Positions 1-11,923 of a stretch of DNA of 37,047 nt are shown piece after piece. This DNA is from Laribacter sp. GTDB lineage: Bacteria > Pseudomonadota > Gammaproteobacteria > Burkholderiales > Aquaspirillaceae. Each line of letters begins with the position of its first letter. The first letter of the stretch is position 1. The notes under the pieces were generated by a model. The model was not told the origin of the DNA and made no database searches. It saw only the letters and a list, made by a program, of their open reading frames with translations. The stretch lies in the NCBI GenBank assembly GCA_018055005.1, contig JAGPIM010000005.1, positions 1 through 37,047 on the forward strand. The letters are read 5' to 3'. A program made the translations under genes and the position numbers.

Positions 1-213
1 AGCAAATTCGTAACGATGGGCGCAGAACGCGCCACTCGGGAAAGAGAAAACCCGCGCGGGATCGGCTCAACGCGGGAGCGCGAAGTTTAGCCTGACTGCG
101 CGCCGACGGATAGGGCCAATTGCAGATACCGGCCCTGTCGCGTCCTGACGTGTCCTCTCAAACACGCCGTCAGGCTTAACCATAGCCTGGTAGCCGGCCG
201 GTTGCCGGCACCG
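1..213. other. Intergenic edge region, no gene seen
   Basis: I found no convincing coding sequence or RNA gene here. An imperfect hairpin (CCTGACG at 144-150 pairing with CGTCAGG at 168-174, extended by TGT/ACA across a bulge) lies about 40 nt downstream of the emrB-like stop codon. It has no T-run, so it is at best a weak 3'-end structure for the minus-strand operon. Confidence 0.4.
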
Positions 214-1749
214 TCAATGCCCGCCACTGGCTGCCGCAACTGATGCCGGACGCCTTGCAAACCACACGATGATCACCAGCGCAAAAAACAACAGGCCGGA
301 CACCCAGAACAGTTCATTGCCGCCGATGATGTAGCTTTGTTGCGTCACCTGCTGTGCAATCAGGGCTTTCGCGGCTTCCGGCGGCAGCCCCGCCGCTGCC
401 AGCTGATCAAGCGAAGCGCGGTAGGCCGGGTTGTACGGATCCAGATGCCCGACCAGCCCGACATGGTGCACGGCCTCGCGCCGGTCCCACATAGTGGTCA
501 CGATCGACGCGCCGATCGCACCGAACAGGGTGCGCAGGAAATTCGACAGGGCCGATGCGCTGGCGATCTGGTCCGGACGCAGCCCGGCCAGCGACAGCGC
601 CGTCAGCGGCATGAAAAAGCACGCGACCCCCAGCCCTTGGGCAAACTGCGGCCACGCCACGCCGGCAAAGTTGATGCCCGGTTCAAAGGTCCAGGCCCGC
701 CAGATGAAGCTGCCGCCAAATGCCAGAAAGCTCAGCGATGCCAGCCAGCGCAGGTCGATGCGGTGCGAAAACCGCCCGATCAGCGGCGACAGGATCACCG
801 GCAGGATGCCGACCGGCGCCGTCGCCAGCCCGGCCTGGAAGGCGGTATAGCCCAGTTGTGCCTGCAACAGCAGGGGCAGCAGCAGGATGGCACCGAAATA
901 CAGCATGTAGCCTAGGCTGATGGCGATGGTGCCGATGGTGAAGTTGCGCGAACGGAACAGGAACAGGTCGATGATCGGATGCGAATCGGTCAGTTCCCAG
1001 ATGATCAGCGCCACGATGCCGATCACCGCCACCACCGCCAGCGTGACGATCACCCACGAACCGAACCAGCCCAGGTCCTTGCCCTTGTCGAGCATGATCT
1101 GCAGGCTGCCGACGCCGACCACCAGCAGGGCCAGCCCGATCTTGTCCACCGGCAGCACGAAAGTGTCGGTCTCGCGATGGCGCAGGATCGGCCAGCCGGC
1201 CCACAGCACCAGGATGCCGATCGGCACGTTGATGAAGAAAATACCGCTCCAGTGCCAGTTGTCGGAAATCCAGCCGCCGAGGATCGGCCCGAAAATCGGT
1301 GCCACCACCACCGTCATCGCCCACAGCGCCAGCGCCAGTCCCTGCTTGTCACGCGGATAGCACGGCAGCAGCAGGCTTTGCGACAGCGGGATCAGCGGGC
1401 CGGAAATCCCGCCCTGCAACACCCGGAAGAAGATCAGCATCTCCAGCGACTGCGACAGGCCGCACAGTGCCGACGCCACGATAAAACCCAGCGCCGACAC
1501 CATGAACACCCGCACTTCGCCATAGCGGCGGGCCAGCCAGCCGGTGATCGGCACCGAAATGGCATTGGCCACGGCAAAGCTCGTCACCACCCATGTGCCC
1601 TGGTTGACCGAGGTACCGAGGTTGCCCGAAATGGTCGGAATGGCCACGTTGGCAATGGACGAATCCAGCACCATCATGAAAGTGGCCATCGCCAGCGACA
1701 CGGTGATCAGCCAGCGCTGCGCGCCCGTCAGCGGCGGATGCGACGCCAT
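214..1749 (-). CDS. emrB: DHA2-family drug efflux permease, EmrB/QacA type
   Basis: Inner-membrane proton-driven multidrug exporter of the major facilitator superfamily, 14-helix DHA2 class, expected to work with the EmrA-like adaptor and the outer-membrane factor encoded just upstream. The N-terminus carries the class motif LDSSIANVAIPTISG, followed by the MFS loop motif around GWLARRYGEVR, and the protein is hydrophobic throughout. Length (511 aa) fits EmrB. I chose the ATG at 1749, which lies 4 nt beyond the emrA-like TGA (1754-1756) behind AGGG/GAGG purines. An in-frame start at 1782 would overlap emrA and add 11 residues with no homology character. Substrate cannot be read from sequence. 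It is the last gene of a four-gene minus-strand unit. Confidence 0.93.
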   Translation of the reverse strand: MASHPPLTGAQRWLITVSLAMATFMMVLDSSIANVAIPTISGNLGTSVNQGTWVVTSFAVANAISVPITGWLARRYGEVRVFMVSALGFIVASALCGLSQSLEMLIFFRVLQGGISGPLIPLSQSLLLPCYPRDKQGLALALWAMTVVVAPIFGPILGGWISDNWHWSGIFFINVPIGILVLWAGWPILRHRETDTFVLPVDKIGLALLVVGVGSLQIMLDKGKDLGWFGSWVIVTLAVVAVIGIVALIIWELTDSHPIIDLFLFRSRNFTIGTIAISLGYMLYFGAILLLPLLLQAQLGYTAFQAGLATAPVGILPVILSPLIGRFSHRIDLRWLASLSFLAFGGSFIWRAWTFEPGINFAGVAWPQFAQGLGVACFFMPLTALSLAGLRPDQIASASALSNFLRTLFGAIGASIVTTMWDRREAVHHVGLVGHLDPYNPAYRASLDQLAAAGLPPEAAKALIAQQVTQQSYIIGGNELFWVSGLLFFALVIIVWFARRPASVAAASGGH

Positions 1750-1753
1750 CGCC

Positions 1754-2920
1754 TCAGCCCTGCCCGCCGGCATTGGCGGCAATCAGGTCCGCCACCCGGG
1801 CACTGACATCATCAAGCTCGGCGTCGTACACCCGCGTCGCCATCACCGGCTTCGCGCGCGCCACGGTGGTCAGCACCGGACCGCTGGTGTCCGTGGTATC
1901 CACCGTACTGACCATCGACAGCCCCACACGCAGCGGATGCTTTTTCAGCGGCTCCGGGTCCAGCTCGATCCGCACCGGCACCCGCTGCACCACCTTGATC
2001 CAGTTACCGGTGGCATTCTGCGGCGGCAGCAGCGAAAACGCGCTGCCGGTCCCGGCCGACAGCCCCGTCACCCGCCCGGAAAACTCCACCGACGAGCCAT
2101 AGACATCGCTGGTCAGCGTCACCGGCTGGCCGATGCGGATCTGGCTCAGCTGGGTTTCCTTGTAATTGGCCTCGACCCACACCTTCGACAGCGGCACCAC
2201 CGCCATCAGCGGCGTTCCCGGCTGGATCTGGCTGCCCACCTGCACCGTACGCCGGGCTACATAGCCGTCGACCGGCGCCACAATGGTCGTGCGCCGCCAG
2301 TTGAGCCAGGCACTCTTGTAGGCACTGATGGCGCTGGCCACCGCCGGCTGCTCGGCCAGCGGCGAACCCAGCACCTGCGCCCGCGCCGCCGCCTGCTGCT
2401 GCCGGGCGGCATTCAGCGCCGCCTCGGCACTGGCCACGGCATCGCGGGTATTGGCCAGCTCCTCGGCCGTCACCGCTTCGGTGCCGGCCAGCTTCTGCCG
2501 GCGCGCCAGGTTGCCCTGTGCCTCCTTGAGCTGTGCCGTGCGCAGCGCCACCTCGGCGGCGGCGGCATCGGCACTGAAAGTCTGTCCGCGGGTCGAGCGC
2601 ACTGCCTGCGCCAGCTGGGTGGCAGCCCGCTCCAGTGCCAGCGTGGCGTCAGTGGGGTCCAGCCGCACCACCGGCTGGCCGGCACGCACCAGGTCGGTAT
2701 TGTCGGCATCGATGGCCACCACGGTGCCGCCGGTCAGCGGCGTGATCTGCACCAGATCGCCGCCAACGTAGGCGTCGTCGGTCGACAGGTGCGTGCGGCC
2801 GTACAGCAACCAGTACAGGAGAAAAGCCACGCCGCACACGATGACCACCACCGCAAGCCAGATCAGGGCCTTCTTGCGGGTACGGGCAGGTGCCGGCGCC
2901 GGAGTATCAGCAGTATTCAT
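1754..2920 (-). CDS. emrA: HlyD/EmrA-family periplasmic adaptor subunit
   Basis: Membrane-fusion protein (388 aa) linking the EmrB-like pump to the outer-membrane channel. Visible parts are a short cytoplasmic N-terminus, one membrane helix near residues 15-40 (IWLAVVVIVCGVAFLLYWLL), the family segment STDDAYVGGDLVQITP, a first half lipoyl-like motif, a long Ala/Gln/Arg-rich alpha-helical hairpin at about residues 95-200, the second lipoyl half (APVDGYVARRTVQVGSQI), and a beta-barrel region ending in YNA-like residues. It starts 29 nt after the outer-membrane factor and ends 4 nt before emrB, so the three are almost certainly co-transcribed. The gene symbol is by family resemblance; substrate is unknown. 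Confidence 0.93.
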   Translation of the reverse strand: MNTADTPAPAPARTRKKALIWLAVVVIVCGVAFLLYWLLYGRTHLSTDDAYVGGDLVQITPLTGGTVVAIDADNTDLVRAGQPVVRLDPTDATLALERAATQLAQAVRSTRGQTFSADAAAAEVALRTAQLKEAQGNLARRQKLAGTEAVTAEELANTRDAVASAEAALNAARQQQAAARAQVLGSPLAEQPAVASAISAYKSAWLNWRRTTIVAPVDGYVARRTVQVGSQIQPGTPLMAVVPLSKVWVEANYKETQLSQIRIGQPVTLTSDVYGSSVEFSGRVTGLSAGTGSAFSLLPPQNATGNWIKVVQRVPVRIELDPEPLKKHPLRVGLSMVSTVDTTDTSGPVLTTVARAKPVMATRVYDAELDDVSARVADLIAANAGGQG

Positions 2921-2949
2921 GAACGTGTTTCCTTGTTGATCTTGTGGAT

Positions 2950-4362
2950 TCAGCGGCTCAGCGCACGGGCCGTTGCCAGCCGTGCCTGCCAGGCGGCGGC
3001 CCGGGCACTGGTTTCGCTCTGGCGGGCGGCCAGCAGTTCGGCTTCGGCGGCCAGCGCGGTTTCACGCGAGCCGATGCCGGCCCCGGCCCGTTCGCCGGCC
3101 AGCCGCAGGGCCAGCCCGGCCTCGGCTCGCGCCGCCGACGCGGCCTGCTGCACGGTCTGGCTGGCCTCGACCGCTGCATAACCGTCTGCCGCCTCGCGCG
3201 CTGCCGTGATCAGGCTGGCGGTGTAGCTGGCATTGGCCGCATCGAATTCGGCCGAGGCGGCGGCCAGCCCGGCGCGGCGGCGGCCGCCGTCAAACAGCGG
3301 CAGGTCGATCACCGGTGCCAGCCCGAACATGCGGCTGGCGCGGGTCAGTAGATCCCCCGTGCCCTGCGCTGACAGGCCGGCAAATGCCGACAGCGAAATG
3401 CTGGGATAAAACGCTGCCCGGGCGGCATGGATGTCCTCGGCGGCAGCGGTAATGGCCAGTCGCGCGGCCTCGACGTCCGGCCGTGCCGCCAGGGCGGCCA
3501 GCGTGGGTTCGGACGGCAGGACCAGGGTGGCGGGATCCGGCAGGCGGGCCGGCGTGAACCGGCGCGTGGCCTCCGGCCCCTGCCCGGTCAGCTGTGCCAG
3601 CGCGTGCCGGTTGAGTGCCACCTGTTGCCCGGCTGTCGCCAGCGCTCCGCGCTGCTGTTCGGTGGCGGCCCGCAGGACGGCCAGCGCACTGCGCGGGGCC
3701 AGTCCGGCGGACACCCGCTGCTGCAACAGCGACTGGCGGGCTTCGAACGTGGCCAGTCCGCGGGCCAGCAGCTCCTGCCGTTCGACCGATTCGGCCAGCG
3801 CCACGTACTGCATGGCCACGGCGTAAGCCAGCAGGCGCCGTACGTCGCGTTCGCGGGCAGCAGCCACGGCTACGCCGGCTTCGGCCGAACGCACCTGCGC
3901 GGCCATCTGTCCCCAGAAATCAAAGAGATAACTGAATGTCACCTCGGGCTGGTACAGCGTGTACCACTGGCCGCCGATCGGTGGCGGATAGAGGCCGTTG
4001 GCCGATTCGCGCAGCCTTTGTACCGTCAGCTGGGCATCCAGCTGCGGCAGGCGCAGTGAGCGGGCCTGCAACAGGGTCGCCCCGGCGGCGCGCACCCGGG
4101 CCGCGGCTGTCGCCAGGTCCGGGCTGTCGCTGAGTGCGCGCCGCACCAGTCCGGCCAGTCCGGGCGAGCCGAGGGCTTGCCAGGCGTCATCGGCCACCGG
4201 GCGGGCGGCGGTGGCCGATGACGCCGGCACCAGCGCCAGTGCGGCCGGATCGGGAGTACGGGTTTGCGGTTCGATACCGTGGGTGGACGCGCACCCCGCC
4301 AGCAGGGCAGAGGCGGCGACAAGCCACAGAGGGCAGGAAAGCGGGAATTTCATACGGTTCAT
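2950..4362 (-). CDS. Outer-membrane efflux lipoprotein, NodT/OprM-like (OMF)
   Basis: TolC-like outer-membrane channel subunit (470 aa) of the tripartite pump. A lipoprotein signal peptide is visible at the N-terminus, ending in the lipobox LLAGC, so Cys24 would be acylated. Two OEP repeats follow; the arrangement and length match NodT-family lipoproteins. The start codon sits only 3 nt beyond the stop codon of the HD-GYP gene and I see no Shine-Dalgarno sequence before it (the preceding bases are GCGCTGAAAA), which suggests translational coupling to the upstream gene. A second in-frame ATG at 4353 is a possible alternative start. EmrAB pumps often use such an OMF encoded in the same operon. 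Confidence 0.93.
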   Translation of the reverse strand: MNRMKFPLSCPLWLVAASALLAGCASTHGIEPQTRTPDPAALALVPASSATAARPVADDAWQALGSPGLAGLVRRALSDSPDLATAAARVRAAGATLLQARSLRLPQLDAQLTVQRLRESANGLYPPPIGGQWYTLYQPEVTFSYLFDFWGQMAAQVRSAEAGVAVAAARERDVRRLLAYAVAMQYVALAESVERQELLARGLATFEARQSLLQQRVSAGLAPRSALAVLRAATEQQRGALATAGQQVALNRHALAQLTGQGPEATRRFTPARLPDPATLVLPSEPTLAALAARPDVEAARLAITAAAEDIHAARAAFYPSISLSAFAGLSAQGTGDLLTRASRMFGLAPVIDLPLFDGGRRRAGLAAASAEFDAANASYTASLITAAREAADGYAAVEASQTVQQAASAARAEAGLALRLAGERAGAGIGSRETALAAEAELLAARQSETSARAAAWQARLATARALSR

Positions 4363-4365
4363 TTT

Positions 4366-7314
4366 TCAGCGCAGCGTGGCAGGGGTCCGGTCGCCGGGCG
4401 GGGCCAGCACGGCGGCGACGTCCACCGCATCGAGCTGGGCCGGTGCCAGATAGCGTTCGGCGTACCGGCGCCAGACGCCGCTTTCGACAAACAGGACAAA
4501 GAGATCGCGGTCCAGATGGCCGCGCTCGCACATGGCACGCATGCGCGCCAGTGCCTCGCTGACCGGCTGGCCGGTCTTGTAGGGGCGGTCGGCCGCGGTC
4601 AGCGCCTCGAATACGTCGGCAATCGCCAGCATGCGCGCCTCGACGCTCATGTCGTCCTGCATCAGGCCGCGCGGATAACCGCTGCCGTCCACGTGCTCGT
4701 GATGGCTGCCGGCGATGTCCGGCACCTGTTTCAGGTGGGGCGGAAACGGCAGCTGTCTCAGCATTTCGATGGTCTGGATGATGTGTTCATTGATCTTGTA
4801 ACGTTCCTCGGCGGTCAGCGTGCCGACACGCACGCTCAGGTTGTGAAGCTCGCCCCGGTCGTACAGCCAGTCCGGGGCTTCCATGCTGAAACCGCGCCGG
4901 CGATTGGCCGCCGTACCGTCACCGTCCGGACGCGGCACGCGATGGCCGGGCTTGTCGGCCAGCAGGGGTTCGGTGGCCGGCAGCGGACCGGCTGCGGGCA
5001 GCCGGCTCTGTTCTTCATGGCTGATGCCAAGCCGGTCGTCCAGGGTACGTTGCCAGGTCCGGGCCCCGATGCGTCGCAATCGTGCAAGGTCAGCGTCGCT
5101 TAACGGCCGCTCGCCGGTGTTGCAGGCGGCGACAAAGGCAAAGTCGGCATCCAGTGCGGCATGCCGCTCGTCACGGGTACGGCCGAGTGCCGCGGCATCT
5201 CCGCCGGCGGCCATGCCGCGCCAGTAATCAATGTCGGCGTCGCGCTTGAGCACCTCGAAGCGCGTACGGATTTCGTGGATGCGGTCGTACAGCGTTTCGA
5301 GCTTGGTGGCCTTGTCGACCACGTATTCCGGCGTGGTGACCTTGCCGCAGTCGTGCAGCCAGCCGGCGATCAGCAGCGCATCCCACTGCCCGGGCGTCAG
5401 CCGGAAGCTGGCAAACGGTCCCTGCCGGGCCTCGCAGGCGGCTTCGGCCAGCCAGCGCAGCAGCACCGGCACGCGCTGGCAGTGGCCGCCGGTGTGCGGG
5501 CTCTTGGCGTCGATGGCGCCGGCCAGCAGCCGGATCAGCGAATCGAGCAGCGCCGTCTGCGCGCTCAGGAGCTGCTGGTTGTCGATGGCGACGGCGGCCA
5601 GCCCGGCCAGGGCTTCGATAAAAGCCTGACGCTCGTGGGACAACGACTGTCCGTGCACGAACAGCAGGACCAGTACGCCGATGCTGCGCCCCTCGTGCCC
5701 CATCAGCGGTACACACAGCCGGATGGATGCTCCCTGACGTCCCAGGGCTGCGACCGATGGGGGCAGATCGTCAAAGACCGGGCTGTCCGGTTGCAGGGAC
5801 TCGATCTGCGAACGGCCGGTTTCCAGTGCCCGCGCCCGCACGTCGTGCAGGCTGCTGCGCAGGCTCAGTGCCGGCAGGATCAGCGGCTGTTCGCCGGTCA
5901 GCCCGCCGGCCGGCAACAGCTGGCGCCGGTCGGCATCCAGAAAATACAGTCCTGCCGCTGCCGCTTCGGCCGCAGCCAGCGTTTCGGCCAGCAACCGGTC
6001 ATACAGGGCGTGCGGCTCCCGCTCGCGCATCAGGGCCAGCCCGATGGCCAGAAAATGCCCGATGGTGGCCTGCATGCCGTCCATCGATTGCGCCAGCGTG
6101 TCGATCTCGCAGATGGCCGAGTGCAATGGCGGCCTCGGCGAGAAATCCAGTGCATTGATGGCACGGGCGCGGCCGGCCAGCTCCACCAGCGAGGCCGACA
6201 CCCGGCCAGCAATCCACCATGCCAGCGGCACCACCACCAGCACCAGTATCCCGGTCAGCAGCAGCGCCCTGGCGCCTTCGGCCCGGGCCGCGGCCAGCAG
6301 CTCGTCTTCCGGTACCAGCACGGCCAGCCGCAATGGCGGCTCCTGGCCGGTCTGCGGCAAGGCCCGCACCACGACCCGCCACGGTTCGCCGTCCACTTCG
6401 AGCGGATAGGCCCCGAGCGGATGTGGCCCGCGGGCCAGCGCTGCCATGGCGGCCGATCCCTGGTTGCCGAGTTCCGGCAGGGCCAGCCCGTGCCGGTCGG
6501 GCTGCTGCGGGGGCAGGCTGGATGCCAGCAGGCGCAGGCTGGTAGCGTCGTACAGCACGATTTCGCTGCGGCTGATCCGTGGCTGGTGTACCAGCCAGCG
6601 CGACAGGTCCTGCAGCGACAGGTCAGCACCGGCCACCACGCCGGGCGCGATCTCGCGGGCCACGGAGGCCCCGGCTTCTCCGGTGGTGTAGAAGCGGTAG
6701 GGCTCGGTCAGGATACGCTGGCCGGCTGCCTGGCCGGCCGTCTGGTACCAGCTGCGGGTACGCGGATCGAACGGCGGACTGTGCAGCCGCTGGCGATACA
6801 GCACCCGGCCGGCTTCGTCGAGGTAGACAAACTGCATCCAGCGCTGGCCGTCCTGCCGGTCGATGCCCTGCACCAGATAGCGACTGCCGGGCGGCGCCAT
6901 GAACAGGCGCCGGCTTTCGGGCGAATCCAGCGGACGCAGCAGGAAAAACCCGCCATCCGGATAACCGAGGTAAAGCGCCGACAGGCGCTGGTCATGCCGC
7001 AGGGCCCGGATCAGCAGCGGCAGCGATTCCAGCCGGGCGGCCAGCGAGCCGGCCGTCACCAGTGCGCTGCCGCCCAGCATCTGCAAGGTGGCATCCACCG
7101 GAGCCAGCAGGTGTTCGGTGCGGGATTCGGCTGCGCTGACCGCGTAATCGAACTGGGTAACGTGGCTGTCGATCAGCTGCCGGCTGGCACTGCGGTAGTT
7201 GAGCCACGACACGGCACCGCCCGCCACCAGCGCCAGCAGCGCCAGTACGGCAGTCAGGTAGAACTGGAAGCGCATCCGCCAGCGCGGCGGAGCCTGGGGA
7301 GGAGAAGCAGACAT
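4366..7314 (-). CDS. Membrane HD-GYP phosphodiesterase with periplasmic sensor, HAMP and GAF-like regions
   Basis: Predicted cyclic-di-GMP phosphodiesterase, 982 aa. From the N-terminus: a membrane helix (about residues 18-38), a large periplasmic segment of dCache type, a second helix (about 350-370, LLLTGILVLVVVPLAWWIAG), a HAMP-like segment, a GAF-like region (about 440-600), and an HD-GYP domain. Metal and catalytic motifs are intact: HDCGK with His654-Asp655, NEH with His844, and HHEHVDGSGYP starting at His871. Between HDCGK and His844 lie about 190 residues where canonical members have about 30, so the catalytic domain carries a large insertion. It is the promoter-proximal gene of the efflux operon. 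Catalytic activity is inferred from the motifs. Confidence 0.9.
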   Translation of the reverse strand: MSASPPQAPPRWRMRFQFYLTAVLALLALVAGGAVSWLNYRSASRQLIDSHVTQFDYAVSAAESRTEHLLAPVDATLQMLGGSALVTAGSLAARLESLPLLIRALRHDQRLSALYLGYPDGGFFLLRPLDSPESRRLFMAPPGSRYLVQGIDRQDGQRWMQFVYLDEAGRVLYRQRLHSPPFDPRTRSWYQTAGQAAGQRILTEPYRFYTTGEAGASVAREIAPGVVAGADLSLQDLSRWLVHQPRISRSEIVLYDATSLRLLASSLPPQQPDRHGLALPELGNQGSAAMAALARGPHPLGAYPLEVDGEPWRVVVRALPQTGQEPPLRLAVLVPEDELLAAARAEGARALLLTGILVLVVVPLAWWIAGRVSASLVELAGRARAINALDFSPRPPLHSAICEIDTLAQSMDGMQATIGHFLAIGLALMREREPHALYDRLLAETLAAAEAAAAGLYFLDADRRQLLPAGGLTGEQPLILPALSLRSSLHDVRARALETGRSQIESLQPDSPVFDDLPPSVAALGRQGASIRLCVPLMGHEGRSIGVLVLLFVHGQSLSHERQAFIEALAGLAAVAIDNQQLLSAQTALLDSLIRLLAGAIDAKSPHTGGHCQRVPVLLRWLAEAACEARQGPFASFRLTPGQWDALLIAGWLHDCGKVTTPEYVVDKATKLETLYDRIHEIRTRFEVLKRDADIDYWRGMAAGGDAAALGRTRDERHAALDADFAFVAACNTGERPLSDADLARLRRIGARTWQRTLDDRLGISHEEQSRLPAAGPLPATEPLLADKPGHRVPRPDGDGTAANRRRGFSMEAPDWLYDRGELHNLSVRVGTLTAEERYKINEHIIQTIEMLRQLPFPPHLKQVPDIAGSHHEHVDGSGYPRGLMQDDMSVEARMLAIADVFEALTAADRPYKTGQPVSEALARMRAMCERGHLDRDLFVLFVESGVWRRYAERYLAPAQLDAVDVAAVLAPPGDRTPATLR

Positions 7315-7337
7315 GCCTTTGTTATAGGCAGGCCGGC

Positions 7338-7367
7338 AACAAAACGGGCGTCCCGCCGGGACGCCCG
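7338..7367 (-). terminator. Intrinsic terminator of hemC
   Basis: A perfect 10-bp stem (7345-7354 with 7358-7367) with a 3-nt loop is followed on the minus strand by TTTTGTT. It lies 23 nt past the hemC stop codon and just upstream of the HD-GYP gene, so it insulates the efflux operon from hemC transcription. Confidence 0.9.
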
Positions 7368-7389
7368 CTGGTCAGTCAGGCGGCGACGC

Positions 7390-8316
7390 TCAGCCGGCAG
7401 CCTTCACGGCGTCGATCACATCGTCGGCGCCCTGGTCCAGCAGTTTCTTCGCAATCGTGCGGCCCAACGCGTCGGCGTACTCGGCCGGAGCCGTGGCTTC
7501 GGCGTGCAGCAGGGTGGTGCCGTCGGGTGTGGCCACAAAGCCACGCATGACCAGCATGTGTTCGTGCTGCTCGGCATAGCCGCCCACCGGAATCTGGCAG
7601 CTCGCCCCCAGTGCCCGGCCCATGGCCCGCTCGGCCGTGACGCAGGCGTAGGTAGCCGGGTGGTTGAGCGGCGCCAGCAGCGCCATCAGGTCGGCACGGT
7701 CGGCACGGATTTCGATGCCCAGCGCCCCCTGCCCCACGGCCGGCAGGCTGTCGGCGGTCGACAGCTCCATGCGGATGCGCTCGGCCAGCCCCATGCGCTT
7801 GAGGCCGGAGGCCGCCAGGATGATGGCGTCGTACTGGCCTTCGTCGAGCTTGCGCAACCGCGTTTGCAGGTTGCCGCGCAGCGGCTTCACCAGGAGGTGC
7901 GGATAGCGGGCGCGGACCTGGCTTTCGCGGCGCAGGCTGGCCGTACCGACCACGGCACCGGCCGGCAACTCCGAGAGGCTGGCATAGCGCGACGACACGA
8001 AGGCATCACGCGGGTCTTCGCGTTCGCAGATCGCCGCCAGCGCAAATCCCTCAGGCAGATCCATCGGCACGTCCTTGATCGAGTGCACCGCCAGGTCAGC
8101 CCGGCCTTCCTGCATAGCTAGTTCAAGCTCCTTGACGAATAGCCCTTTGCCGCCGATCTTGTTCAGGGTTTTGTCCAGAATGCGGTCGCCCTGCGTGGTG
8201 ATGCCCAGGATGCTGACCTCCAGCTCCGGATACAACGCCTGCAAACGCGCCCGGATATGCTCGGCCTGCCACATGGCAAGCGGGCTCTCGCGGCTGGCAA
8301 TGACGACTTGCTTCAT
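7390..8316 (-). CDS. hemC: Porphobilinogen deaminase (hydroxymethylbilane synthase)
   Basis: Cytoplasmic enzyme that joins four porphobilinogen molecules into hydroxymethylbilane in tetrapyrrole synthesis. The N-terminus [17 protein letters not shown], the segment [20 protein letters not shown] with the following KD, and the cofactor-site context [12 protein letters not shown] (Cys that holds the dipyrromethane) are all present. Length of 308 aa is normal. I chose the ATG at 8316, which matches the family N-terminus and has AGGAA about 11 nt upstream; a longer reading to 8358 has no family support. No hemD follows here; the gene is followed by its own terminator. It diverges from ppc. Confidence 0.97.
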
Positions 8317-8420
8317 ACCCAATATTCCTGTGTTAATTTGTTGCAATTCTAACATCATGACCGTACCGGATTTTCATTAGCCAACAGTCGACCCGGTTCA
8401 TTTTTCTAGGATACCTGAGC

Positions 8421-11144
8421 ATGACTTCCGACTTTGACAAGGATCTGCCCCTGACGCGCGATCGCATGCGCCTGACCCGGCTGCTGGCCGAGGTCGTACG
8501 CGAGCAGGTCGGCGATGCCGTCTGGCAAGAAGTCGAGCAGATCCCGCAACTGGCCTGTCACACCGAAGACCTCAGCCCGCTGCGCACGCACCTGCAACAG
8601 CTGTCACCCGTCGTCCTCGACACCCTGCTGCGTTCCAGCGGCCTGCTGGCCCAGCTGGAAAACCTCGCCGAAGACCTGCACCACAACCGCCGCCGCAAGG
8701 CGCACCGCAAGGCCGGTTCGCCGCCGCAGCCGGGCAGTCTGGCCCGTGCGCTGACCATCCTGCGCGAACACGGCATCACCGCCGATACGCTGGCCGGCCT
8801 GCTGGAATACGCCCAGATCGTGCCGGTGCTGACCGCCCACCCGACCGAAGTGCAGCGCCAGACCACGCTGGACTGCCAGCGTGCCATCCGCAAGTTCCTG
8901 CAACTGCTCGACCACCCCGATGTCGAGGCCGACGCCGAAGCGGCCCTGACAGCCAAGCTCAAGCGGGTGCTGCTGACGCTCTGGCAGACGGCCGACATCC
9001 GCCCGTTCAAGCTGACGGTCAAGGACGAAATCGAAAACGGCATCGCCTACCACCCGCTGACCTTCCTCGATGCCCTGCCGGCGCTGTATGGCCGGCTGGA
9101 AGACGACATCGCCGCCACCTTCGGCACCCGTATCGAAATTCCCAACTTTTACCGCATCGGCAGCTGGATCGGCGGTGACCGCGACGGCAACCCGTTCGTC
9201 AACGCCGACCTGCTGCGCTACGCCCTGTCGCGCCAGGCCGAAATCGCCTTTGCCCATTACGACTACGAACTCGAAGGCCTCTACCGCGAGCTGTCGCTGT
9301 CCGACCGCCGGGTGCAGGTCAGCCCGGCCGTGCAGGCACTGAGCGACCGTTCACCCGATACCGCCATCAGCCGCGAAGAAGAACCCTACCGCCGCGCCAT
9401 CGCCACCCTGCAGGCGCGGCTGGCCGCCACCGCCCGCGAGCGCGACATTCCGTTCCACTCGCGCTTTGGCCATGCCGAGGCGGCACCCTACCGCGACCGG
9501 CACGAGCTGGGCGCCGACCTGACTGCCATCGCCCGCTCGCTCGACACCCACGGCAGCACGCTGCTGGCCGGCGGCCGCCTGCGCGAACTGCGGCGGGCGG
9601 TCAGCGTGTTCGGCTTCTTCCTGATGCCGCTGGACCAGCGCCAGCATGCCGACCTCTACGGCGCCGCCGTGGCTGAACTGTTTGCCCGCGCCGGCCAGCC
9701 CGGCTACGACGCACTGGACGAAGCCGGCAAGCGCGCCTGGCTCCTCGCCGAACTGGCCCACGCCCGGCCGCTGGCCTCGCCGTTCATCGAGTATTCGCCC
9801 GGCGTGCAGCGCGAGCTGGACCTGTTTGCCGCCACCCGGGCCTTGCAGGACCGCTACGGCGAAGGCGCGCTGCCGAACCTGATCATCTCCAACTGCGCCG
9901 AGGCCAGCGACCTGCTGGAAGTGGCACTGCTGATGAAGGAAAGTGGCCTGCTGCCGCTGGAGGCCGACGGCCGCCACCGGGCACGCGCCAACATCATCCC
10001 GCTGTTCGAAACCATCGAGGACCTGGAACACGCCGACACGGTGATGCGCGAGCTGTTCGCCATCCCGCTGTACCGCGAGCTGCTGGCCAGCCGCCAGGAC
10101 GTGCAGGAAGTAATGCTGGGCTACTCCGACAGCAACAAGGATGGCGGCTACCTGATGAGCCAGTGGGCGCTCTATGCCGCCGAAAAGCGGCTGGTCGCGG
10201 TCTTTGACCTGTTTGACGTGCGCATCCGCCTGTTCCACGGCCGCGGCGGCTCGGTCGGCCGCGGCGGCGGCCCGAGCTTCGATGCCATCCTCGCGCAGCC
10301 GGCCGGCACGGTGGCCGGCCAGATCCGCATTACCGAACAGGGCGAAGTCATCGCCTCCAAGTACGCCGACCGCACCATCGGCCAGCGCAACCTCGAAGCC
10401 CTGCTGGCCGCCACGCTGGAAGCCAGCCTGGTGCCGCGGCCGTCATGCCCGACCGACGAAAGCGTATTTGGCGAACTGGCGGCCGACAGCTATCAGGCCT
10501 ATCGCCAGCTGATCGAAACCGATGGTTTCATCGACTATTTCCTGGCCGCCACGCCGATCAACGAGATCGCCAAGCTCAACATCGGTAGCCGCCCGGCCTC
10601 GCGCAAGACGCTGGCGTCGATCAGCGATCTGCGGGCGATCCCGTGGGTATTCAGCTGGATGCAGTCGCGGGTGATGCTGCCGGGCTGGTACGGCGTCGGC
10701 AGCGCCATGAGCGCCTTCCTGGCGCGCCACGGCACCACCGGCCGCGACCGGCTGGCCGCGCTGTGGCAGGAGTCGGCCTTCTTCCGCGTCGCCCTCGACA
10801 ACATGGAAATGGTGCTGGCCAAGGCCGACATGCAGATTGCGGCGGAATACGCCTCGCTGGTGCCGGACCCGGCCGTGCGCGAACGGGTATACGGCCTGAT
10901 CCGCAGCGAATTCGAGCGCACCCGCGATGCCTTCTGCGCCATCACCGGCCAGACCCGGCTGCTGGCGGGCAACCCGACCCTGGCGCGCAGCCTGGCTGCC
11001 CGCATGCCGTACTTCACCACGCTCAACCTGTTGCAGATCGACGGGCTGGCCCGCCTGCGCCAGGATCCGGACAATCCGGAGCTGCTGTACGCCATCCACC
11101 AGACCATCAACGGCCTGGCCACCGGCCTGCGCAACAGCGGCTGA
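8421..11144 (+). CDS. ppc: Phosphoenolpyruvate carboxylase
   Basis: Anaplerotic enzyme converting phosphoenolpyruvate and bicarbonate to oxaloacetate. The protein is full length for the bacterial family (907 aa). Catalytic signatures are TAHPTEVQR with His140, GYSDSNKDGG with Lys573, and FHGRGGSVGRGGGP with Arg608; the C-terminus ends in the usual ATGLRNSG. An AGGA element lies about 10 nt before the ATG. The gene is monocistronic, with a strong terminator 22 nt after the stop codon. The 104-bp gap to hemC should contain both divergent promoters, but I could not assign clear -35/-10 pairs. Confidence 0.98.
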   Translation: MTSDFDKDLPLTRDRMRLTRLLAEVVREQVGDAVWQEVEQIPQLACHTEDLSPLRTHLQQLSPVVLDTLLRSSGLLAQLENLAEDLHHNRRRKAHRKAGSPPQPGSLARALTILREHGITADTLAGLLEYAQIVPVLTAHPTEVQRQTTLDCQRAIRKFLQLLDHPDVEADAEAALTAKLKRVLLTLWQTADIRPFKLTVKDEIENGIAYHPLTFLDALPALYGRLEDDIAATFGTRIEIPNFYRIGSWIGGDRDGNPFVNADLLRYALSRQAEIAFAHYDYELEGLYRELSLSDRRVQVSPAVQALSDRSPDTAISREEEPYRRAIATLQARLAATARERDIPFHSRFGHAEAAPYRDRHELGADLTAIARSLDTHGSTLLAGGRLRELRRAVSVFGFFLMPLDQRQHADLYGAAVAELFARAGQPGYDALDEAGKRAWLLAELAHARPLASPFIEYSPGVQRELDLFAATRALQDRYGEGALPNLIISNCAEASDLLEVALLMKESGLLPLEADGRHRARANIIPLFETIEDLEHADTVMRELFAIPLYRELLASRQDVQEVMLGYSDSNKDGGYLMSQWALYAAEKRLVAVFDLFDVRIRLFHGRGGSVGRGGGPSFDAILAQPAGTVAGQIRITEQGEVIASKYADRTIGQRNLEALLAATLEASLVPRPSCPTDESVFGELAADSYQAYRQLIETDGFIDYFLAATPINEIAKLNIGSRPASRKTLASISDLRAIPWVFSWMQSRVMLPGWYGVGSAMSAFLARHGTTGRDRLAALWQESAFFRVALDNMEMVLAKADMQIAAEYASLVPDPAVRERVYGLIRSEFERTRDAFCAITGQTRLLAGNPTLARSLAARMPYFTTLNLLQIDGLARLRQDPDNPELLYAIHQTINGLATGLRNSG

Positions 11145-11165
11145 CCTTCTCCGGCTGAGGTATCC

Positions 11166-11193
11166 TGCCGCCGGTGCACCGGCGGCATTTTTC
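11166..11193 (+). terminator. Intrinsic terminator of ppc
   Basis: A perfect 22-nt palindrome (11166-11187, TGCCGCCGGTG/CACCGGCGGCA) is followed by TTTTTC on the plus strand, 22 nt past the ppc stop codon. Confidence 0.92.
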
Positions 11194-11284
11194 ATGCCAT
11201 GACGTATAAAAAGAGTCGCCGGCCAGATCGCCAGCCGCGATAATCCAATGTCATTTTTCCGATCCACCCGTCACCCGACCCGCC

Positions 11285-11923
11285 ATGAACCCGTCCACTC
11301 GCCGCAAACCCGGCCGCCAGCATGATCCACTGCTGGCCGAAGCCCGCCGCCAGCAGATTCTCGATGCCGCGGCCGACTGCTTCCGCCGGCACGGCTACCA
11401 CGGGGCCAGCATGGCGCAGATCTGCCGCACCGCCGGCATGAGCGCCGGCCACGTTTACCATTTCTTCGCCAGCAAGGATGACATCATCACCGCCATCATC
11501 AGCCGCGACCTGCAGCAGCTGTTTTCCCTGATGGCCGAAATCGCTGCCCGCCCGGAATCGCTGCACGCCGCCCTGGTCAACTCGGTCCAGCGCGGTGTCG
11601 ACGACAACCTGGAACCCACCTACAGCGCCCTGCAACTGGAAATGCTGGCCGAAGCAGCGCGCAATCCGCACGTGGCCACCATCCTGCGCGAAGCCGACGC
11701 CGCCGCCCGCCAGCACCTGCGCGAGCTGCTGCTGGGCGACCCGGCGCAGCCGGCCATTGCGCCGGAGCTGCTCGACAGCACGCTGGAAGTCATCAGTGCC
11801 CTGTTCAACGGCCTGCTGATCCGTGCCGTGCTGCATCCGGAACTCGACCGTGCAGCGCTGACCGAACAGGTGCAGCACGTCATGCGCAGCCTGCTGGCCC
11901 GCCTGAGCCTGCCGCCGCACTGA
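11285..11923 (+). CDS. TetR/AcrR-family transcriptional regulator
   Basis: Predicted dimeric DNA-binding repressor, 212 aa. After a basic N-terminal tail, residues about 20-65 form the TetR helix-turn-helix (RRQQILDAAADCFRRHG, SMAQICRTAGMSAGHVYHFF, SKDDIITAI), and the rest is an all-helical ligand-binding domain. The ATG at 11285 follows a pyrimidine-rich leader without a strong Shine-Dalgarno sequence. It lies alone between ppc and a convergent azlCD pair, so its target is not evident from context. The window's only drug pump operon is about 4 kb away and has no regulator next to it, making it a conceivable but unproven target. Confidence 0.92.
   Translation: MNPSTRRKPGRQHDPLLAEARRQQILDAAADCFRRHGYHGASMAQICRTAGMSAGHVYHFFASKDDIITAIISRDLQQLFSLMAEIAARPESLHAALVNSVQRGVDDNLEPTYSALQLEMLAEAARNPHVATILREADAAARQHLRELLLGDPAQPAIAPELLDSTLEVISALFNGLLIRAVLHPELDRAALTEQVQHVMRSLLARLSLPPH

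Follow-up and report, generated by a model that had tools for sequence, protein, structure and literature searches.

A predicted HD-GYP-type c-di-GMP phosphodiesterase gene probably heads an EmrAB-type efflux operon in Laribacter

In Laribacter sp., a gene for a predicted cyclic di-GMP (c-di-GMP) phosphodiesterase of the HD-GYP type directly precedes the three genes of an EmrAB-type efflux pump. It appears rather probable that all four genes share one transcript behind the hemC terminator, that the outer-membrane factor (OMF) is made by reinitiation, and that the pump, which has no MarR gene of its own, follows the expression of the signalling gene. In the window, i.e. the whole stretch of DNA that was analyzed (37,047 nucleotides of contig JAGPIM010000005.1), the open reading frames (ORFs) give the (-) strand order HD-GYP gene, OMF, emrA and emrB, with the following features:

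7338..7367, (-) strand: likely intrinsic terminator of hemC, in the gap that separates hemC from the HD-GYP gene (10-bp GC hairpin at 7345-7367, then TTTTGTT)
7321..7326, (-) strand: TATAAC, a weak candidate for a -10 element, located 6 nt ahead of the ATG of the HD-GYP gene and conserved in the congener
4366..7314, (-) strand: dCache-(HAMP)-GAF-HD-GYP protein, 982 aa, the first gene of the unit; predicted c-di-GMP phosphodiesterase
2950..4362, (-) strand: NodT-family OMF, 470 aa, with an alternative in-frame ATG at 4353
1754..2920, (-) strand: emrA-type periplasmic adaptor, 388 aa, preceded by AAGGAAA
214..1749, (-) strand: emrB-type DHA2 family MFS exporter, listed among the ORFs as 214..1782 from a TTG
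51..76, (-) strand: possible, weak terminator after emrB (7-bp stem, then TTTTCTCTTT)

For emrB, the ATG at 1749, located 4 nt past the emrA stop codon, seems a better start than the TTG at 1782. An earlier note on this DNA had described the HD-GYP gene as being followed after 3 nt by an OMF gene without a visible ribosome-binding site and then by emrA and emrB, and had proposed translational coupling at this junction. The ORFs and the pairing with the 16S rRNA tail agree with this description: the HD-GYP stop codon and the OMF ATG (4362) are 3 nt apart, and 16S-tail pairing revealed no Shine-Dalgarno match for the OMF at ATG 4362 or 4353. The 20 nt upstream of either ATG pair with at best -0.9 kcal/mol, compared to a median of -3.9 kcal/mol for 300 random upstream 20-mers of the window. 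The corresponding values are -5.4 kcal/mol for emrA, -7.0 kcal/mol for emrB and merely -3.2 kcal/mol for the HD-GYP gene itself, in a coarse measure in which 5% of random 20-mers reach -8.0 kcal/mol. The junction thus looks as one would expect under translational coupling, and both co-transcription and reinitiation are likely, judged from the sequence.

The 75-nt gap between hemC and the HD-GYP gene contains a perfect 10-bp GC hairpin that is identical in the congener and folds with -24 kcal/mol (z -1.56; 16 of 200 shuffles were equally good). It was not listed by the consensus terminator scan, by our reading because extension of the stem consumes two of the T's. As this strong hairpin and the T-tract TTTTGTT separate the four genes from hemC, these look like one transcription unit, and the HD-GYP gene probably begins it, as had been claimed for this gene beforehand. 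Read-through from hemC was also considered as the main source of HD-GYP transcription and is unlikely given the intervening hairpin and T-tract. A -35 partner was not seen for TATAAC, which the consensus scan did not list, and a sigma-70 consensus scan of 1-8500, a weak test, returned zero (-) strand sites. Behind emrB, the putative terminator stem folds with -12.9 kcal/mol (z -0.41; 66 of 200 shuffles equally good) and is likewise identical in the congener. Two (-) strand terminator-like matches of the consensus scan fall within the unit, at 3945-3925 in the OMF gene and at 6962-6948 in the HD-GYP gene; they speak against a single transcript, in a scan whose total of 5 matches is near the 4.3 expected by chance from shuffles. 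Rfam at gathering thresholds gave no match to known RNAs in 1-11300.

The pump proteins are readily recognized. The OMF matches TIGR01845 (outer_NodT) with 255 bits (cut-off 210) and is encoded together with emrA and emrB, as in EmrAB tripartite pumps. EmrA models top the match list of the adaptor and cover it near full length, yet remain below their cut-offs, with 374.6 bits for TIGR00998 (EmrA/EmrK subfamily), just below 390.8, and 469.3 bits for NF011715 (PRK15136; cut-off 563). The exporter exceeds the cut-off of TIGR00711 (efflux_EmrB; 553.7 bits, cut-off 230.2), which marks it as a DHA2-family MFS permease, and scores 749 bits with the EmrB exception model NF000391, below the cut-off of 925.

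In the HD-GYP protein, Pfam identifies HD_5 (PF13487; E 4.1e-43) and GAF_2 (E 3.2e-12), in addition to a weak HAMP match of 20.3 bits, below the cut-off of 25. An AlphaFold2 model built from an alignment of 49 family members (mean pLDDT 83, pTM 0.53) contains a dCache domain (residues ~45-345), a helical HAMP-like linker, a GAF domain (~430-580) and then the HD-GYP domain. The dCache domain is flanked by long helices (11-81 and 336-387), within which the membrane spans presumably lie. Foldseek and VIA-align were queried with the whole 982-aa model, whose stretch from the HD motif to the third histidine was barely covered. In VIA-align, the dCache part resembles PscC (6mni; Z 19.7, rmsd 3.0, 232 aligned), the choline receptor PctD (7prq; Z 19.6, rmsd 3.2, 249 aligned), PctA (5ltx; Z 17.8, rmsd 3.3, 233 aligned) and the proline-bound 7k5n (Z 16.8, rmsd 3.2, 226 aligned), while the GAF part resembles 3ci6 (Z 17.8, rmsd 2.9, 155 aligned). 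The HD-GYP part aligns with DvhD (9rbz; Z 16.5, rmsd 3.6, 205 aligned, 24% identity), and PmGH (4mcw_A; E 2.4e-10) was the top HD-GYP match among the 50 matches listed by Foldseek. The periplasmic sensor postulated earlier is thus matched by a predicted dCache domain in both the model and the fold comparison. Since 6mni and PctD 7prq are tied, the fold does not pick a ligand class. We also considered the dCache_1AA motif, [YFWL]x4[RK]xW[YFW] x13-17 [YFW] x27-34 D (PMC11237719, as given in the accessible part of the article), with the four x of its methods section, where the results text gives three. The window's protein has F, R, W, Y, Y and D in motif order, with a final gap of 24 residues to the aspartate of a conserved G.D instead of 27-34; this gap is 24-25 in 11 of 12 relatives listed and 18 in the remaining one. 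Over 82 aligned rows, 47 fulfil the strict and 79 a relaxed form of the motif, where a later aspartate can satisfy the strict form. The ligand is possibly an amino acid or an amine.

The HD-GYP metal-ligand motif H..HD..H..HH..D, as defined in the available text of PMC8177086, is fully intact. All ligands (H611, H654-D655, H844, H871-H872 and D900), as well as K658 and the GYP triad at 879-881, are invariant across all 49 family members of the alignment. Hence the protein is likely a working enzyme, which agrees with its previous designation as a c-di-GMP hydrolase. The domain harbors a long insert between residues 658 and 844, so that the HD motif is 190 residues away from the third histidine, a spacing that is presumably far shorter in PmGH. 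The distance from HDCGK to IN.HI amounts to 185-199 residues in 41 of the 49 rows, and the IN.HI pattern was not found in the other eight. Among the other HD-GYP proteins of the order, many also give two separate matches that flank the 658-844 stretch. Four residues ahead of the first histidine lies H607, in a column occupied by Y in 43 and by H in 6 of the 49 members and in none by Glu. We take this column to correspond to E185 of PmGH, the glutamate that serves as eighth ligand in the three-metal branch. The glutamate of three-metal enzymes thus seems to be absent from the window's protein, and with H607 in its place a two-metal centre would be expected. According to the portion of PMC8177086 at hand, some HD-GYP proteins also use or prefer 3'3'-cGAMP.

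The arrangement was then compared across a set of 60 genomes, the window's own (G000) included, in which HD-GYP orthologues were sought as long matches. Such matches occur in eight genomes, near full length in G000, the congener G001, the sister genus G002, G009, G015, G032 and G059, and over residues 136-972 in G003. From the seven orthologue loci other than the window, 14-20 kb each were retrieved. The congener keeps ppc-hemC-HDGYP-OMF-emrA-emrB; at the six other loci, no match to emrA, emrB or the OMF was found at E <= 1e-5, with locus L036 (G015) ending 0.8 kb downstream and G015 having no emrA match anywhere at E <= 1e-60. Among the six genomes of the family, four carry the HD-GYP gene at E <= 1e-70 and two the full arrangement; of the four outside the genus, two have the orthologue elsewhere and two have none at this threshold. 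The conservation of gene order that the earlier note had made a touchstone therefore holds for the congener, the one other genome of the genus, and for 0 of 4 other family genomes. In 6 of 6 genomes of the family, ppc and hemC lie side by side in divergent orientation, hence the HD-GYP and pump genes were probably placed behind hemC in the Laribacter lineage.

A broader survey relied on a contig scan in which an alignment query confirmed at least 593 relatives, whereas a single-protein query confirmed none. The best 80 of these at least 593 relatives (Pseudomonas, Aeromonas, Cupriavidus, Vogesella and others) were taken as named orthologue loci, 64 of them with flanks of ~8 kb on both sides. 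Within the flanks of these best 80 of at least 593, emrA was found in none, an emrB-like gene in three and an OMF-like gene in one, all encoded on the strand that does not carry the HD-GYP match. Clustering of the ORFs around the same 80 loci gave no pump partner, with cluster representatives that include many antisense ORFs. At 24 of 78 of these loci, an ORF starts between -30 and +80 nt of the HD-GYP stop codon; many of these ORFs are probably not real genes and, judged on their first 70 residues, none of the 24 encodes a pump part, barring an ABC-transporter ATPase located 77 nt downstream at L106. A survey of neighbourhoods, as suggested along with the original claim, thus did not recover the HD-GYP/EmrAB order outside the genus, either at the six orthologue loci or at the best 80 of at least 593 named ones. 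Conversely, 13 of 18 emrA matches were examined as related pump loci, among them the second pump of the congener (L082), leaving out the window's pump in G000 and G001, the second G000 pump (C106), G032:C6 and G012:C1:1949387; at these 13 loci, no HD-GYP match was detected at E <= 1e-3. Among the genomes examined, the order of HD-GYP gene and pump is, by these sequence comparisons, restricted to this genus.

Some of the other loci show features of their own. In the sister genus, the HD-GYP gene stands alone (L034) beside aldolase-like and bioH/bioC-like genes, named by eye; at 7887-10913 of this locus, its sensor and cytosolic parts are separated by one in-frame TGA, which may be a sequencing error or reflect a split gene. 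In G003 (L039, 10913-17181), the orthologue is followed by a tight series encoding FecR-domain, OmpA-family and CHASE2 plus nucleotide-cyclase proteins, so that a c-di-GMP phosphodiesterase adjoins a class III cyclase. In Marinobacterium nitratireducens (L109), the HD-GYP gene is succeeded in tandem, 68 nt past its stop codon, by an ORF of 975 aa whose N-terminus begins similarly and which is probably a paralogue.

Ten of the 13 related pump loci have a MarR gene immediately ahead of the pump, the exceptions being L071, L078 and L080; at L074, MarR precedes emrA and no OMF match was found. The closest pump of the sister genus (EmrA 61%) also stands behind a MarR gene (L070; Pfam MarR E 2.4e-10). 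With five MarR queries, no match was obtained at E <= 1e-3 in the window or in L033. In the 100% complete genome of the congener, the sole match to the MarR of G002 at E <= 0.001 precedes the second pump (L082). G000 gave no match to this MarR, which says little for an assembly that is 87% complete in 262 contigs. Because the sister genus has the parts apart and MarR is upstream in 10 of 13 pump loci, the HD-GYP gene is, by its position, in the repressor's usual place, apparently after a lineage-specific rearrangement. A TetR-family regulator gene at 11285-11923 on the (+) strand, downstream of ppc, may encode a distant regulator of the pump.

Between G000 and G001, synonymous and nonsynonymous codon changes number 85 and 26 in the HD-GYP gene, 68 and 29 in the OMF gene, 37 and 6 in emrA, and 49 and 11 in emrB, a synonymous excess in all four genes as under purifying selection. 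Divergence at four-fold sites is uneven, with 0.19 in the sensor part and 0.05 in the middle of the HD-GYP gene, 0 of 84 in its last 151-152 codons, and 0.17 in the OMF gene after codon 25. The sensor part and the OMF gene differ from the congener by ~8%, while there is one difference in the 450 nt at 4351-4800 and none in the 300 nt at 5851-6150. The simplest reading of this mosaic would be recombination between lineages. Alternatively, the invariant 3' end of the HD-GYP gene might contain an embedded element, e.g. a promoter, although recombination seems to fit better.

Taken together, a standalone dCache-GAF-HD-GYP gene and an EmrAB-type pump operon may have come together behind the hemC terminator. 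A transcript of all four genes would start from a promoter just downstream of this terminator. The HD-GYP gene would be translated, ribosomes would reinitiate at the OMF after its stop codon, and emrA and emrB would be translated from their own sites. The pump level would then track how strongly the signalling gene is transcribed and translated, instead of responding to derepression by a local MarR. We infer catalysis as well as the ligand class, and the enzyme would act like its solitary relatives, which are predicted to bind a small periplasmic ligand and to lower c-di-GMP. For a single transcript, gene order alone is no proof, and a promoter could lie inside the HD-GYP 3' end, where the invariant last 151-152 codons could mean an embedded element; moreover, the arrangement is found in only two closely related genomes, one of them the 87% complete G000. 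As for the loss of MarR, 3 of 13 pump loci likewise have no MarR upstream, and a regulator encoded elsewhere could serve, for example, the TetR-family protein mentioned above. If the reading of one transcript with reinitiation is right, the locus chiefly offers a clear example of a repressor-less pump under the expression control of its neighbour.

Conceivably, the genes are instead accidental neighbours that act independently, with the pump promoter inside the HD-GYP 3' end, a reading that is unlikely but has an appreciable chance. Genes for c-di-GMP metabolism are numerous, with 28 GGDEF matches in one of the two genomes and 30 in the other, hence one more phosphodiesterase would be unremarkable and its location next to some pump no great rarity by chance: ~0.04-0.11 co-directional cases would be expected per genome under the assumption of 33 c-di-GMP genes, 8-20 pump operons and 3000 genes. 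The zero four-fold divergence at the HD-GYP end would fit an embedded element, yet the invariant tract is much longer than a promoter, the sigma-70 scan mentioned above is empty on the (-) strand, and the OMF, in contrast to emrA and emrB, lacks a Shine-Dalgarno match. It is more doubtful that the genes form a dedicated module, in which the dCache domain would detect a substrate of the pump or some related signal, and phosphodiesterase and pump would jointly link the biofilm or motility state to efflux, as the earlier note had suggested. This would agree with the tight junction, with the order kept in both species at mostly synonymous change, and with a dCache fold that is nearest to ligand-binding sensors among solved structures. 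In addition, the dCache-PAS-HD-GYP protein DvhD of Desulfovibrio is encoded beside a type 1 exporter and governs what is displayed by it (PMC13090378, in its available part). On the other hand, the arrangement is unseen outside the genus, both at the six orthologue loci and at the best 80 of at least 593 named loci, the enzyme family occurs pump-free in many Proteobacteria, and no HD-GYP match occurs at any of the 13 related pump loci; moreover, the HD-GYP domain of DvhD is catalytically dead and works via a protease, and the four proteins here have no Pfam protease match. There is a slim chance that MarR was swapped for the phosphodiesterase in such a way that the dCache ligand and the c-di-GMP state are translationally tied to the amount of exporter, with efflux shifting along with motility. 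If true, cells leaving the sessile state would gain or lose efflux along with motility. A single transcript for a c-di-GMP phosphodiesterase and a pump without its usual repressor would be a simple system for a link between c-di-GMP and efflux.

An HD-GYP gene heading an efflux operon was not found described in the open-licence PMC literature, as judged by titles and abstract openings. L. hongkongensis has two emrAB-tolC loci, LHK_01373-01376 with emrR and LHK_03132-03134 (PMC3125207, accessible part). The latter resembles the window in its emrB-emrA-OMF order and in that no emrR is reported in the available portions of PMC3125207 and PMC2652115. The congener G001 is likewise similar to L. hongkongensis, with two emrA matches, the second behind MarR, and its TolB is located 35.5 kb from emrA, which fits emrA LHK_03133 and tolB LHK_03172 at ~0.9 kb per gene, as far as these genes are given in the accessible text. 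The term 'HD-GYP' does not occur in the available text of PMC3125207 and PMC3135505, where no HD-GYP neighbour is described. The MarR(EmrR)-OMF-EmrA-EmrB operons of relatives share the OMF-emrA-emrB order and 44-65% identity with the emrA and emrB products of the window, but have the MarR gene directly upstream, where the window has the HD-GYP gene instead.

The enzyme, too, has known counterparts. PmGH (4mcw) carries the extra ligand E185 (PMC8177086, part of the text), whereas the window's protein has H607 four residues before its first histidine. By architecture, Bordetella PdeE (BB1564) is a comparable membrane protein with periplasmic Cache and cytosolic HD-GYP domains; in contrast to its degenerate QD-GYP site (PMC12805831, in the portion available), the window's protein has the full ligand set. 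DvhD of Desulfovibrio vulgaris shares the periplasmic dCache domain, a cytosolic sensor and the HD-GYP domain, and is encoded with a TolC-like exporter (PMC13090378, likewise in part). Its operon encodes an adhesin, a type 1 secretion system and the protease DvhG, to which no Pfam match exists among the four window proteins, and according to the same partial text DvhD is without metal ligands and binds c-di-GMP only, while the window's protein has all ligands. With these ligands present instead of a catalytically dead domain, the protein appears unlike inside-out switches of the DvhD/LapD type. Of the systems found in which an HD-GYP protein is encoded together with an exporter, DvhD is nonetheless the nearest precedent.
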